Under the pieces are notes generated by a model. That model worked only from the letters and a program-made list of their open reading frames with translations, searched no databases and was not told the origin of the DNA. Below are positions 6,973 to 13,680 of a stretch of DNA of 64,000 nucleotides, piece after piece; the first letter of the stretch is position 1; each line of letters begins with the position of its first letter. A program made the translations under genes and the position numbers. This DNA is from Sulfuricurvum sp. (GTDB lineage: Bacteria; Campylobacterota; Campylobacteria; Campylobacterales; Sulfurimonadaceae), in assembly GCA_024637295.1 (NCBI GenBank), contig JAGXFL010000011.1, positions 62,001 through 126,000 on the forward strand, given 5' to 3'.

Positions 6973-8592
6973 TTGAAATTTGCTCAGATTCTTTTTCTTG
7001 TATTAGTAGTATTGTCTCTTAACATCAGTGCGGCAGATGATGTTTCACGCCTAGAAGCTGCTAAAAAAGCGCTTGAAAGTCACGATGAAATCGAGCAATT
7101 TCGCGGTTATAATGAATGTAAGACGATCTATCTGCGTGCAAATTTGAATAAAAATACGGATTTGGCACGCGATGCACTGAGCGGGATTGTCAAAGGCGGA
7201 GAAACGCTTGGTATTGATGTCGCAAAATATAGATCAGAATTAGCAAAATTACAGCCTCAGATAGCCACACCTTCACCTGTTACGACAGCATCTTCCATTG
7301 TGGCCAAAGCTTATGAATCACCCCAAAAAATCCTTGTATTTCCAAAAGAGTATTTGAAAGCGCCAACTGCACCGGCAAAAGATGGTTTCTTAACGCCAAG
7401 CAGTACAGAATTATTTAAACAAGCCGAGCTTATCAAAACACCCACAGAGAAAGAGCCCTCAAAGCCTCATCGATTAGTTGATACCAAATGGAAAGAGACA
7501 GGATTAGAGTTGCTCTTTGATACCCCTGTTGATGCAAAAGATGTACATCTCTCTAAAATAATCGAATCGGATAAACAGCGTTTTCGCTATATTGTCGATA
7601 TTGATTCGGGAAAATTATCTCAAGACAAAGTACTCGAACATAAAAGCATCAATAAACTACGTTTAGGTCAATACGATGCTAAAACTTTGCGTTTGGTTAT
7701 TGAGCATTCACAAGCTATTAGTGTTAAAACAACAGCCAAAGGTTCATCGGTCTTAATTGATTTTTCTTTGCCGACAACTGCAAAAGAGCTTTTGACCAAG
7801 CCAGCGACTATTTCTTCGGAAATTGATTTGCCTCCATTACCGCCATTATTAGGCCCACCCCCGATACTAAGTACTAGTCCTGCGTTAGAAAGTGTCACAC
7901 CGAGAGATCGAAGTAAAAAAGTGATTGTAATCGACCCTGGACATGGCGGAAAAGACAGCGGTGCAATCGGTAATGGTTATATGGAAAAGGAAATTGTCCT
8001 GCAAATAGGGCTTGAACTCAATAATCAGCTCAAAGCTATGGGATATACGGTGTATATGACACGTTCGACAGATGTATTTATAGAACTCAAAGACCGTACC
8101 AAGTTTGCGAATGACAAGTCGGCGGATCTTTTCTTATCGGTGCATGCCAATGCGATTCCAAAAGGTGCTGATGCCAATGCCGCTTATGGTATAGAGACCT
8201 ATTTTCTCTCCCCTGGACGAAGTGAACGCGCGATGCGTGTTGCTGCACTGGAAAACTCTGAAGATATGGGAGAGATGGGTGCATTTGGGAAGCTAAGCTT
8301 CTTAAATGTATTAAATACGGAAAAAATTATTGCTTCCAACAAATTGGCGATTGACATACAAAAAGGTGTATTAAATAATTTACGAAAACAATTTCCGAAT
8401 GTGAAAGATAACAGTGTAAGAGAAGCTCCGTTCTGGGTCTTAGTAGGGGCACAGATGCCGGCAATTTTGTTGGAAACAGGTTATATCAGTAATCCGGACG
8501 AGTCTGCTCGTATCGCAGATTCGAAGTATCAAAAATGGATGGTTGAGGGGATGATTGACGGTGTCAAACATTACTTTGCCAATAATCCGTAA
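6973..8592 (+). CDS. amiA: N-acetylmuramoyl-L-alanine amidase (AmiA type)
   Basis: This is a periplasmic zinc amidase that cuts the amide bond between muramic acid and the stem peptide to separate daughter cells. The 539-residue protein has an N-terminal signal peptide (about 1-20), a proline-rich linker, an AMIN-like domain (about 160-265) that targets peptidoglycan, and an Amidase_3 catalytic domain (about 315-535). Zinc-site motifs are visible: DPGHGGKDSG near 320, the EKEIVL glutamate, SVHANA, and LLETGYISNPDE near the end. The start is TTG at 6973, three bases after the preceding stop, placed directly ahead of the signal peptide. It closes the pyrH-amiA block conserved with H. pylori. 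Confidence 0.93.
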   Translation: MKFAQILFLVLVVLSLNISAADDVSRLEAAKKALESHDEIEQFRGYNECKTIYLRANLNKNTDLARDALSGIVKGGETLGIDVAKYRSELAKLQPQIATPSPVTTASSIVAKAYESPQKILVFPKEYLKAPTAPAKDGFLTPSSTELFKQAELIKTPTEKEPSKPHRLVDTKWKETGLELLFDTPVDAKDVHLSKIIESDKQRFRYIVDIDSGKLSQDKVLEHKSINKLRLGQYDAKTLRLVIEHSQAISVKTTAKGSSVLIDFSLPTTAKELLTKPATISSEIDLPPLPPLLGPPPILSTSPALESVTPRDRSKKVIVIDPGHGGKDSGAIGNGYMEKEIVLQIGLELNNQLKAMGYTVYMTRSTDVFIELKDRTKFANDKSADLFLSVHANAIPKGADANAAYGIETYFLSPGRSERAMRVAALENSEDMGEMGAFGKLSFLNVLNTEKIIASNKLAIDIQKGVLNNLRKQFPNVKDNSVREAPFWVLVGAQMPAILLETGYISNPDESARIADSKYQKWMVEGMIDGVKHYFANNP

Positions 8593-8665
8593 TTCATAAA
8601 GTATTGCAGTAATTAGTTAGGGATCATTCTATCATTTCTTTTAGATGTGAACCCTTTTTTTGCAG

Positions 8666-11665
8666 TTATTTTATAGCACCAATAGTAAAATCAACTCCAT
8701 ACATACTGCTCTGAGGTATCTGTCTATAGCCCCATTTTTTTTCTGTTCTGTCTGGCAGGGTTTCTTCTACATAATCATTTAACCCGTTGATAGTAATCGT
8801 GTTGTCTTGATTATAGCCCATCCCTTTAAGTGCTTCGATTAACGTATAGGTAAATACTCCATGACCTTCGTAGCCTTCAAGTGCTACTTGGCTTTTACTA
8901 CTTGCACTTATAGTTGCTCTTCCTGTCGCGCGAGCTAGTTTATTGGTCGTAGTCTTTTGCATATTGGCTTCTACGAATGAACCTGAGTTACAAGTATCTA
9001 GAAGCACTAATGATTTTAGTGCTGTAACTCTTGAAAGTCCTAACATTAAATCTTTTTGACCTACTCCTTGAACCTGAACTGCTGAAGTATTGTCTTTGTC
9101 TTCAAAGTTATAGGGGATATAGTAATAGTTTCCATTATATTCATCCGTTATACCATGACCTGCGATATAGAGGAGAAATACATCTTCACGAGTTGAGTTT
9201 ATATCTTTGAAGGCTTGTATGATATTTTCTTTGGTTACTTCTTTATCAAAAAGTTTATAGGTATGTACTTTCTTAAAAAGAGGTTTTGCTACATCTTGAA
9301 TAGTCTTTAACATCTCTTTGGCATCGTTTATAGAGTATTTTAGTGTTAGGTCTTTATCTTTGTATTCATTTACAGCTATGGCTAATATATGTAAATCATT
9401 TACATTCTGAGAGCCTGATATTTGCTCAAGTTTACTTCTGACTTTCTTTTTAAGATTTGTATCATCAAAGGTTACTTCTAGAAAGTCTGGTTTAGATTCT
9501 ATATTTCCTGCTTTGTTTGTCGCACGAAAACCTATTGTATTTTTACCACCTGCTAAAGAGATAGTCTGGTCATAATTGAAACAGTCATCTCTTTCAGATT
9601 TCTTTTTGAGTTTTAATGCACGAGAAGTATCTATAACTGATACTGGCATATCGTTTATAAGTAGGGTAAGATTGTCATATCCACCATTTGCTTTTGGACA
9701 TACTTCTACTTTTAAAGCTAGATCTTGCATATCAGTATTTGTGGTACTTGTGAGAATATGCACTTCTGGTGCTAAACCATCTTCAAGCAACTTGTCTATA
9801 TTTATATTTTTAGCATATTTTTCTAGACTTTCCCCTGCTAATGCTTTTTGGATAAGGTCTGGTCTGTAAAAGGTAGAGTAAAGTGCGTCTACGGTTACAT
9901 ATTCTGCCTCTTTATACGGTCCCTGATTTATATGATAGCCAATGTACTGGCCACCATTTTTTGAAGCGGTAAAGAAACCTTCGTCTGTATAGACTACATA
10001 TTCGTTATCATGTGAGATAAAAAGAGTTATAGTAGGATAGATTTTTTGTTTTAAATATATTTCAGTATCATTTAGCTTTCTAGCTTGCGCTAAAACATTC
10101 TCTCTTGATATTTTATAACTATCCATGATAGAAGATACATACTCTTCATTAATTTCCAAGGGTTTGTTAGCATCATTTAGCACAGATAAATCCCAAACCT
10201 TTATAGTCTGGTCACTGCTCCCGCTAACGAGCCTATCTCCATCAATGGCAATGCTCTCAATTTCCCCCGTATGACCAACTAACGATGCTATTTCTTCGCC
10301 TTTTTTGTTATATATTTTCAGAAATCCAGTCATTCCACCGCTGATGATAAAATCTTTGTACCAGCCATAACAGTTATGTCTATATCCGGTGTTAGGGTCT
10401 TTTTCAATATTGTTTTTTACAACACCATCCTTTTTTATCTCTAGCACTGCATCATATCCATACTCTCCACCTTGTTTATGCTCTAAAGACCAGTCGCCAT
10501 TTGTTGTAGGAATGCTACGGAACAAAGAATCTATTCGAGGTTTAATTTGAAAATCTTTTAGATTGATTGATTTTTTAAGGTTTTGACAATTTACATCGTC
10601 GCAGTACTCATTCCCCCACGCAATCTCATCTCCCTTTATCCCGACACTCCAAAGACACTCTCCGACACCAATGACCTTTTTTATCTTTATGGCATTTTTT
10701 TTATCCCAGATGTAGATTTCATTATTCTCTCCACCACCACTCACAACGGTGTCATTATCTATGAAATTAACTGCCATTGTTAGATTTGTATGTTCTATAA
10801 ATGTTGCTGTTGTTTTGTAACTGTTTGTTTCGTAGATGTTTAGATCATAGGGAGGCTCACTCGTACCAGCAGCTAAACTCTCACCATCAGGGCTATAAGC
10901 TAAACCTGTAGGCACAGTTGTACTCTTGATAGTCTGTTTGAGATTCAGCTTATTATCAAATATTAAAATTTCGTGTCCATATCCACAGGTAGCTACATCT
11001 GTGCCATTCGTTGCTAAATAGGCAAGTTTATCATTTGAAGTGTAGCTGTTGATATATCGTACATTGTTGTTATAAAATTGGTGAAGCACTATTTTGTTGT
11101 CATACCCTGCTGAATAGATGTCATAAGAGTGCTCTCTTTTTATCATCTTAACTGCATATACAAAATCTGTGTGATAATTAATAGTATTCTCAAGCGTCCA
11201 GTTTGAAGTTTGCCAGATTTTTACTGTCTTGTCTCCTGAACCAGAAATGAGGTATTTGTCATCGCTGCTAAAACTTAAATCATATACCGTGTTGGTATGT
11301 GATTCGAGAACTTTTAGAAGTTTTCCTGTTTTGTAATTGTAGATCCTAATAGCATCATTGGGATCCGCAAAAAGCCCCCCAACAGCCAAATACTTATTAT
11401 CCCCACTCAAAGCTATTGCGTATATCATTCCCTCAGGACCAGTACCGATGGAACCGAGTATCTTTTTCTTTTCTTTGCCTGTTTGTATGTCCCAAACCCG
11501 TATGGTTTTATCATCACTAGCACTAATGATTTCACTTTTATCTTTTGAGACTAATAGATCATTAATTATCCCTGTATGCCCTTGCGTATCAAGCTTTAAA
11601 ATCGCTTCACTGTTTGCAAATACAGTTGTACTTAGGAGTAGAAAGAAGAGGAATATCTTTTTCAT
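8666..11665 (-). CDS. Exported WD40-repeat protein with C-terminal caspase-like protease domain
   Basis: A 999-residue protein with a clear signal peptide (about 1-17, ending VFANS). Residues about 25-490 form a WD40 beta-propeller with repeats ending in forms such as DKTIRVWD, DKTVKIWQ and DQTIKVWD. A middle region (about 500-740) of beta-rich linker follows. A caspase (peptidase C14) domain covers about 745-995. The His of the catalytic dyad is His837 in AGHG and the Cys is Cys892 in LLDTCNSG; both are intact, so the domain should be active. An Asp two residues before the Cys resembles metacaspases. The gene is AT-rich compared with neighbours. It lies 51 bases after a DUF4139 gene on the same strand and converges with amiA. 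Substrate and role are unknown. Confidence 0.9.
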   Translation of the reverse strand: MKKIFLFFLLLSTTVFANSEAILKLDTQGHTGIINDLLVSKDKSEIISASDDKTIRVWDIQTGKEKKKILGSIGTGPEGMIYAIALSGDNKYLAVGGLFADPNDAIRIYNYKTGKLLKVLESHTNTVYDLSFSSDDKYLISGSGDKTVKIWQTSNWTLENTINYHTDFVYAVKMIKREHSYDIYSAGYDNKIVLHQFYNNNVRYINSYTSNDKLAYLATNGTDVATCGYGHEILIFDNKLNLKQTIKSTTVPTGLAYSPDGESLAAGTSEPPYDLNIYETNSYKTTATFIEHTNLTMAVNFIDNDTVVSGGGENNEIYIWDKKNAIKIKKVIGVGECLWSVGIKGDEIAWGNEYCDDVNCQNLKKSINLKDFQIKPRIDSLFRSIPTTNGDWSLEHKQGGEYGYDAVLEIKKDGVVKNNIEKDPNTGYRHNCYGWYKDFIISGGMTGFLKIYNKKGEEIASLVGHTGEIESIAIDGDRLVSGSSDQTIKVWDLSVLNDANKPLEINEEYVSSIMDSYKISRENVLAQARKLNDTEIYLKQKIYPTITLFISHDNEYVVYTDEGFFTASKNGGQYIGYHINQGPYKEAEYVTVDALYSTFYRPDLIQKALAGESLEKYAKNINIDKLLEDGLAPEVHILTSTTNTDMQDLALKVEVCPKANGGYDNLTLLINDMPVSVIDTSRALKLKKKSERDDCFNYDQTISLAGGKNTIGFRATNKAGNIESKPDFLEVTFDDTNLKKKVRSKLEQISGSQNVNDLHILAIAVNEYKDKDLTLKYSINDAKEMLKTIQDVAKPLFKKVHTYKLFDKEVTKENIIQAFKDINSTREDVFLLYIAGHGITDEYNGNYYYIPYNFEDKDNTSAVQVQGVGQKDLMLGLSRVTALKSLVLLDTCNSGSFVEANMQKTTTNKLARATGRATISASSKSQVALEGYEGHGVFTYTLIEALKGMGYNQDNTITINGLNDYVEETLPDRTEKKWGYRQIPQSSMYGVDFTIGAIK

Positions 11666-11716
11666 GAGGATTTTTCTTTGATTGTTTTTTTCGTATATGA
11701 ATAATATTGCTTCAAT

Positions 11717-13327
11717 CTAATCAAGTCCTTCTATCTCAATTTTTTTAGGATAAGAAACCGTAAACTGCATTGGCAAAATTTTCTTTTCATGGGCATTCAA
11801 GGCTACGTCCCATGTGATGATTCCATCTTCAGATACTTTTGCATCCTCTTTTTGAGGTGCGTCAAGAACAACTTTGATCTGTTCGTTTCGAGAAACCGGA
11901 AAATGATCTTCTACTGTGATTTGAATCGGTTTATTTTTTCCATTTGTAATTTCGTGAGTATAGCTATATTGTACATGGGTATCATTAGAGATAAATCGAT
12001 CCTCTTTACTGTATTTTTTTTGTTGGTTGTATTCAATTTTAATACTTTCATCAGCACCCAGTGAGAGCTGGACCTTTTCTTCTGGAAAGATTGTTTTTGA
12101 GATATTGTTTATGCCTACAACTCTTCCATCCAATAGCAAAGTCATTTCACCCGCTAGAAGGGGGAAAGAGAACGGATTGTCTAAATCTGCAGTCATATAT
12201 GCAAACGATGAAACACTTGGAGTAGCTCGGTAATGAAAGTTTGCTTCTTTTTCAGCAGATGATATGAAAACTTTATGAGGCTGATTATCAGACGGAATCG
12301 TATTCTTACCAGGGAGAATAAAACTAAATGAGGTTGACTCTTGTTGGATATCAGGTGCCATATACGTATCAGAAGGGATGGATGCAGCTACTGGTGCGCG
12401 GTCCATCATCTCAAATTGAGCATAGGCCGATTTAGAATAAGTTCTTTGACTTGAATGATAAATATCAATATACCATCCTTTTAGTGGATCTGGCGCTTTT
12501 GCACTAAAAGGTTTAGCCGTTGAGATTTCAATCGATGCGTTTGTCCAATCTTCACCGCTTGATTGGGAAATGGAGGCAAAATTAGACCACTCGATTTTTC
12601 CGGAAACAGAATCAGCACGGATGATATAAAGGGGATTCCAATGGGCGTTGTTCACCATATAAGAAATTTCAACTTTTTGATCTTTTAAATCAGCTGTAGA
12701 AAATAATTCGATATGGATACTTTTACTTTGTTCCGGAGTTTTATACGTATCGAGCTCTTTTTCTAACAGAGTTTTTTCTTTTTGAAGTTCCTTGGTGTGA
12801 ACTTCAATTTTTGCAATGCGATTATAATTTTCAGCAAGAGTTTTTTCGAAAAACTTTGTGTAAGTTTCTATTTCAGAAGGAAGCACTTTTTGATTTTGTG
12901 AAAATGGTGTTGTTCTTTTTAAAAAATCATTTGAACTCGTGACAATCGCTATTTCGTCCATCTCAGTTTTGAGAAGAGCAGATGTTTGATCTAACTTGGA
13001 TTGAAGCTTTTCAATATTTTCGTGTTGCAACTTTTGAAGATAAGTCTGTTCCACTTTTACATCGGAAATTTTAATCGTGGAAGCTCCAGCTATCTTCACT
13101 TGGAGAGAATTGTCAATTAAGTTCGGAGTCAAATCGGGTATGATAATCGAGTTTCCCCCTTTTTTTAGGGAAACTTTTCCCTCTTTATTAAGCAGGGCAT
13201 TGTTGGCAAAAACAGTAACACGAGTGATTTTAGGATTCATCACGACCATTGCAGTTGAAGCCGATAATTCCGAAACAGACAAAAAGAAGATAATTGATAT
13301 AACAAAACGCACAGAATATTTAAACAT
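11717..13327 (-). CDS. DUF4139 (MuiA-like) exported protein
   Basis: A 536-residue protein with a signal peptide or N-terminal membrane anchor (about 7-24). The N-terminal part (about 30-130) resembles DUF4140, a long coiled coil rich in Lys and Glu covers about 95-210, and the C-terminal part (about 215-525) is a beta-rich DUF4139 domain. The family includes the so-called mucoidy inhibitor A proteins, whose biochemical function is not established. It is followed by the WD40-caspase gene after 51 bases on the same strand, suggesting one transcript. The promoter would lie in 13328-13489, next to tRNA-Gly. Confidence 0.82.
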   Translation of the reverse strand: MFKYSVRFVISIIFFLSVSELSASTAMVVMNPKITRVTVFANNALLNKEGKVSLKKGGNSIIIPDLTPNLIDNSLQVKIAGASTIKISDVKVEQTYLQKLQHENIEKLQSKLDQTSALLKTEMDEIAIVTSSNDFLKRTTPFSQNQKVLPSEIETYTKFFEKTLAENYNRIAKIEVHTKELQKEKTLLEKELDTYKTPEQSKSIHIELFSTADLKDQKVEISYMVNNAHWNPLYIIRADSVSGKIEWSNFASISQSSGEDWTNASIEISTAKPFSAKAPDPLKGWYIDIYHSSQRTYSKSAYAQFEMMDRAPVAASIPSDTYMAPDIQQESTSFSFILPGKNTIPSDNQPHKVFISSAEKEANFHYRATPSVSSFAYMTADLDNPFSFPLLAGEMTLLLDGRVVGINNISKTIFPEEKVQLSLGADESIKIEYNQQKKYSKEDRFISNDTHVQYSYTHEITNGKNKPIQITVEDHFPVSRNEQIKVVLDAPQKEDAKVSEDGIITWDVALNAHEKKILPMQFTVSYPKKIEIEGLD

Positions 13328-13489
13328 GAAGAACCACCCGCTATTATTAGGTTAAATACAGTAAACAGTATCTTCCTTTAATAATAAAATACTACTTAAA
13401 ATAAGTTTCATTGTATTGCTAAAATATACATCAGTTTAGGTAAGTATAAAAGGCAGGATATGATTATTGTTTGAATGAAAGTGAAAAGG

Positions 13490-13566
<77 letters not shown>

Positions 13567-13590: not shown

Positions 13591-13680
13591 TGGCGGACGA
13601 GGAGAGATTCGAACTCTCGGTACCGTTGCCAGTACGTCTCCTTAGCAGGGAGGTGGATTCAGCCGCTTTCCTACTCGTCC
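13591..13680 (-). tRNA. tRNA-Ser (anticodon GCT)
   Basis: A 90-nucleotide class II tRNA on the minus strand: acceptor stem GGACGAG paired with CTCGTCC, an anticodon loop CTGCTAA giving GCT, a long variable arm (GTACTGGCAACGGTAC), a T loop TTCGAAT, discriminator G and an encoded CCA. It reads AGC and AGU serine codons. It lies 24 bases upstream of tRNA-Gly and is probably on the same transcript. Confidence 0.97.

Follow-up and report, generated by a model that had tools for sequence, protein, structure and literature searches.

The WD40–caspase gene at positions 8666–11665 on the reverse strand of a 64,000-nucleotide stretch of a Sulfuricurvum sp. contig (the window) is, by sequence and tree comparison, a mosaic whose WD40 and protease halves derive from different lineages. 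Its 999-residue product is probably, with a probability of about 0.6, a soluble periplasmic protease of the orthocaspase type that is scaffolded by a propeller. Recognition would fall to the WD40 propeller, and output to an interchangeable C-terminal module composed of an EGFF-type module, an Ig-like stretch and the caspase domain.

Domain Architecture of the Two Genes

The ORF, the Pfam matches and the motif positions confirm the original prediction of a 999-residue WD40–caspase that starts with a signal peptide and keeps the His837/Cys892 dyad intact. The propeller half is formed by residues ~25–498 (10172–11593), and WD40 matches (PF00400, 2.6e-38, 129 bits against a cut-off of 27) cover several stretches of residues 25–500. 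Residues 499–740 (9446–10171) comprise a linker, a module with the conserved sequence NEYVVYTDEGFFTASKNGGQYIGYH and an Ig-like stretch, the last being a reading without a Pfam match. The Peptidase_C14 caspase domain follows at residues 761–987 (8705–9385; Pfam 9e-18, 65.2 bits against a cut-off of 21.4). The catalytic His837 (9155–9157) lies in the motif YIAGHG, and the catalytic Cys892 (8990–8992) lies in LLDTCNSG, in which the DTC motif places Asp890 two residues before the cysteine. Both catalytic residues are kept in the module of every aligned relative.

The size of the propeller and the Ig-like fold are predicted readings of ours; a single-sequence AlphaFold model of the WD40–caspase has a mean pLDDT of 33. 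A PDB sequence search returned generic WD40 matches only, with nothing above chance for the caspase part or the DUF4139 protein. The protein scores 84.7 bits against the EACC1-associated caspase profile (NF047832), under the curated cut-off of 140. The gene has no notable tandem repeats and thus gives no sign of the propeller type with high-identity repeats. Promoter and terminator scans gave results near chance level, and a degenerate-pattern search of genome contigs with the single WD40–caspase protein as the query found one distant match, in Cognataquiflexum.

The neighbouring gene (11717–13327, reverse strand, 536 residues) lies 51 bp upstream on the same strand. Its ORF and profile matches bear out the predicted MuiA-like gene with an export signal: the product is a DUF4140–DUF4139 protein (Pfam DUF4139, 8e-57; DUF4140, 7e-16) of the NCBIfam 'mucoidy inhibitor MuiA family' (TIGR02231, 5e-97), with a score of 325.9 bits well above the cut-off of 112.6. 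No role in alginate production or mucoidy is indicated here, and the role of MuiA in Pseudomonas itself has been questioned (PMC10418997).

Predicted Export of the WD40–Caspase

The N termini of both proteins resemble Sec signals, MKKIFLFFLLLSTTVFA followed by NS in the caspase and MFKYSVRFVISIIFFLSVSELSA in the DUF4139 protein. The signal peptide of the caspase is predicted to span residues 1–17 (11615–11665), to be of the signal peptidase I type and to lack a lipobox, and the N terminus is similar to those of the relatives L150 and L169. These export calls were made with a home-made hydropathy and cleavage rule rather than SignalP, and the rule also flags 19 of the 48 ORFs in the window. By the same rule, the propeller family has a signal peptide or a lipobox at each of its 13 intact N termini, five of the proteins being lipoproteins. 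Since export signals are conserved in the propeller family, the predicted location of the WD40–caspase in the envelope is supported, and a soluble periplasmic location is the best reading of the N terminus by itself.

The assumption that export would make a bacterial caspase exceptional is weak. Export-type N termini occur in most of the longer caspases across the phylum set and in both remaining caspases of the window genome. These two further caspase-domain proteins (L048, 8002–9048; L049, 7601–9115) are a predicted lipoprotein and a protein with a signal peptide. A 2012 survey already lists such groups, assigning 98 of 671 prokaryotic caspase homologues to a membrane group and 30 to an extracellular group; most members of the membrane group have a helix at the N terminus, possibly a signal peptide (PMC3501461).

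Gene Turnover between amiA and the tRNA Genes

The two genes occupy a segment (8593–13489) between amiA (Amidase_3), which ends at 8592, and the genes for tRNA-Gly (13490–13566) and tRNA-Ser (13591–13680), followed by pyrF. The content of this interval varies among relatives in the genus (loci L051–L069), and the interval is a hotspot of gene turnover. Between amiA and the tRNA gene, G010 has only ~40 bp, G008 and G022 are empty at this site as well, and other cargo is found in G021, G031, G016, G025, G013 and further relatives. As read from translations rather than profile searches, the cargo consists of genes of a sensory or chemotaxis type in G021, a set that resembles an inovirus and includes a Zot-like protein in G025 (L067), an integrase-like gene and a DNA methyltransferase gene in G013 (L066) and an integrase-like gene in G029 (L068). 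No integrase gene or att-like direct repeats were found at the ends of the segment 8593–13489.

These empty and otherwise filled sites, together with the trees of the caspase gene, support the view that the WD40–caspase and DUF4139 genes are cargo of a hypervariable interval and were inserted horizontally. Acquisition of the caspase gene had been proposed on account of its AT-richness. Its GC content of 0.356 is indeed the lowest among the 48 ORFs of the window, but the bias is mild (mean 0.406, sd 0.030, z −1.7), and acquisition is upheld by the sites in relatives and the trees rather than by composition. The GC content of the DUF4139 gene is 0.362.

Mosaic Origin of the WD40–Caspase Gene

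L150 in G332 and L146a in G374, from another genus of the same family, are homologous to the window protein over its full length and share its architecture and export signal, but each is close to it in one half only. L150 is the nearest relative of the propeller, with identity falling from 64% over the propeller (dS 1.3) to 32% over the C-terminal half (dS 2.3). The step is reversed in L146a, in which identity rises from 46% over residues 19–498, where dS is saturated, to 92% over residues 540–997, where dS is 0.83 and dN/dS is 0.059. The DNA of L146a is 86% identical over residues ~499–999, and the protein is 92.6% identical over residues 741–997. The low dN/dS of 0.06 indicates that the C-terminal half is under strong purifying selection.

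The change point lies at residues ~483–499 (10169–10219), at the end of the propeller, with a maximum chi-square of 268.5 compared with a maximum of 24.9 in 5000 permutations. In agreement with this, separate trees place the N-terminal half with L150 (100/99) and the C-terminal half with L146a (100/99). AU tests reject a group of the window protein (P1), L150 and L169 in the C tree (p = 8e-5) and a group of the window protein and L146a in the N tree (p = 4e-10); these p-values are optimistic, as the groups were picked after the identity step had been seen, and the effects are large (log-likelihoods 670 and 41 lower). The alignments and trees thus establish that the two halves were brought together by recombination where the propeller ends. 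That the identity step arose without recombination, in a single, vertically inherited gene whose caspase half is more strongly constrained, is hardly credible: within a class, caspase halves are better conserved than propellers in most comparisons, but synonymous divergence steps as well (dS 0.83 against saturation), so that a difference in constraint alone is insufficient, L150 shows the opposite step, and the AU tests reject a common placement of the halves.

Proposed Exchange of Caspase Modules among Relatives

The relatives of the WD40–caspase occur mainly in g23, a genus of the same family. This propeller family bears caspase modules of at least four classes, namely class I in the window protein, L146a, L166 and L167, class II in L150, L169, L168 and L147, class III in L041 and class IV in L171 and L151. 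Mapping of the 11 classified propellers on the N tree gives six changes in the class of the C-terminal module; this tree is weakly resolved, with 2 of 12 branches well supported, and the number of module swaps is therefore uncertain beyond the window gene. A further class, V, comprises four proteins at four loci in G374, whose C-terminal modules are 79–94% identical (74–89% at the nucleotide level) and whose propellers are 29–32% identical.

These observations lead to a tentative and rather less probable generalization that the exported WD40–caspases of the phylum are a modular sensor–protease family, in which recombination, both inside single genomes and across genomes, distributes a few caspase output modules over many propeller sensors. 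Such a family would be a periplasmic counterpart of the sensor–effector shuffling of intracellular immune receptors, and the window gene would be one of its products.

Several arrangements stand out among these proteins. G374 carries at least four WD40–caspases (L146, L148, L177 and L178) that combine nearly the same C-terminal module with very different propellers, in addition to L146a and L147. L043 (169–2106) and L045 (7651–10104) consist of a propeller and an EGFF module and lack a caspase domain, which may have been lost or may never have been there. Exported caspases of genus g23 at L193 (7489–9078), L196 (5458–6930) and L118 (922–2250) carry a fused Lcl_C, FGE-sulfatase or cyclophilin domain.

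Mode of Action and Biological Role

The sequences themselves show the export signals, the intact catalytic residues, the purifying selection and the mosaic structure; trigger binding, activation and substrate are what we infer for the mode of action. By analogy, the propeller would bind an envelope or surface protein, and this binding may join protease domains or lift an inhibition. The enzyme would cut an envelope substrate, probably after Arg or Lys, because Asp sits two residues before the catalytic Cys (LLDTC), a feature of metacaspases and orthocaspases (PMC5756287). Module exchange would wire one proteolytic output to new inputs.

Two proposals on the role of this protein, in conflict or in the envelope together with a DUF4384-like protein, are statements about role, and neither excludes the reading of a propeller-scaffolded periplasmic protease, which concerns anatomy and mode of action. 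As an anti-phage or interbacterial conflict factor, the protein would sense an invader at the envelope and start defensive or suicidal proteolysis, with its sensor and effector reshuffled in an arms race. This role is possible but on the unlikely side. The sporadic distribution, the hotspot location, the swapping of modules and the presence of a conserved effector on highly divergent propellers are consistent with it, as is the fact that distant exported WD40–caspases on two alphaproteobacterial plasmids adjoin type VI secretion genes, but the caspase neighbours in relatives are mostly housekeeping genes and not defence islands. Likewise, a PADLOC search for a specific anti-phage system gave no named system beyond a generic 'caspase' (1.3e-11) and a match to HEAT-ARM_XIII via the repeat region. 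The defence caspases described so far are also mostly cytoplasmic.

The second proposal, to be held just as cautiously, is that the WD40–caspase is a housekeeping or stress protease of the envelope that works with an exported LPP20/DUF4384-like protein. Nine loci (L150, L157, L167, L169, L178, L175, L041, L193 and L196) encode, next to a caspase or close to one, an exported protein with weak matches to LPP20, FlgO and DUF4384. Within g23, this protein occurs in 9 of 15 genomes with this caspase family, compared with 4 of 120 others (Fisher 1e-7), an association somewhat inflated by ascertainment, as the query was built from caspase neighbours. Consistently, DUF4384 has been listed among the accessory domains that cyanobacterial orthocaspases carry (PMC7475262). 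At one conserved locus, however, the DUF4384-like gene often stands without an adjoining caspase (L192, L194, L195 and L197). In the window genome, the partner would be encoded elsewhere: the exported homologue there (L191, 3741–5117; G000:C9:3735–5099; DUF4384 3e-8) is only 30% identical and is unlinked to the caspase. The LPP20/DUF4384-like protein is nevertheless a better candidate for a partner than the DUF4139 protein.

The original prediction paired the caspase with the DUF4139 protein in a two-gene envelope module, in which the caspase would process, or be controlled by, its neighbour. The 51 bp gap, the shared strand, the export signals and AT-richness of both genes and their position within one inserted segment are compatible with such a module, and the two genes are perhaps co-transcribed, but a survey of 60 relatives, then 41 genus genomes and then 397 phylum genomes makes a functional pairing very improbable. 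DUF4139 of the window type is present in 3 of the 41 genus genomes, and the homologues in G379 (79% identical) and G020 (71% identical) are in genomes without this caspase. The WD40–caspase family is found in two of the 41 (the window genome and G007), with a caspase fragment in G032, and the window genome is the only one with both genes. Across the 397 phylum genomes, 28 encode Peptidase_C14, 86 encode DUF4139 and four encode both (Fisher p = 0.48); the two genes are adjacent nowhere but in the window, the other co-carriers having them on different contigs, and no DUF4139 gene lies within three genes of the other caspase loci examined. By the criterion that came with the original prediction, co-occurrence in further genomes, the claim of functional pairing is thus refuted, and the DUF4139 gene is an unrelated co-resident of the hotspot and not a conserved partner.

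In G379 and G020, DUF4139 lies upstream of other genes for exported proteins, the first in G379 being a DUF4919 gene. Three genes downstream of DUF4139, G379 encodes a protein that is predicted to be exported and carries a Kunitz (BPTI) protease-inhibitor domain (L156, 6665–7519), which is unusual in a bacterium. The G007 copy of the WD40–caspase (L041, 7638–10230) looks decayed, its N-terminal part being interrupted by a TGA and a stretch of the propeller being absent.

Relation to Known Caspase Homologues

Both WD40 repeats and signal peptides are already known from prokaryotic caspase homologues. WD40 is the commonest accessory domain, present in 10.9% of 671 homologues, and N-terminal signal peptides, a scattered distribution and horizontal transfer have been noted or proposed (Asplund-Samuelsson 2012, PMC3501461). 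The window protein shares Peptidase_C14 with a His–Cys dyad with these WD40-bearing orthocaspases and metacaspase-like proteins; it differs in having an N-terminal propeller, an EGFF-type module and an Ig-like stretch before a C-terminal caspase domain, and in its mosaic halves. WD40–caspases encoded on plasmids AZO_p3 of Azospirillum lipoferum and pL11-A of Pseudoroseomonas cervicalis also have a signal-peptide-like N terminus and a C-terminal caspase domain and match residues ~17–983, but at 25–27% identity and with different neighbours. On these plasmids (L189 and L190), the caspase genes lie beside a gene for a Gly-zipper protein and type VI secretion genes (VgrG and TagH; TssL and TssM). 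A search of the open-access literature found no account of WD40–caspases in Sulfurimonas or of recombination of half genes in such proteins, and half-gene exchange in WD40–caspases may therefore be new.

Near-identical protease modules on divergent propellers are natural domain-swap experiments, and so trigger and output can be tested separately. Proteins that share the conserved half should share a substrate, and those that differ in the divergent half should differ in their trigger. Attention turns to the LPP20/DUF4384-like protein, rather than DUF4139, as the partner. The WD40–caspase family thereby bears on the question of what bacterial caspase homologues do.
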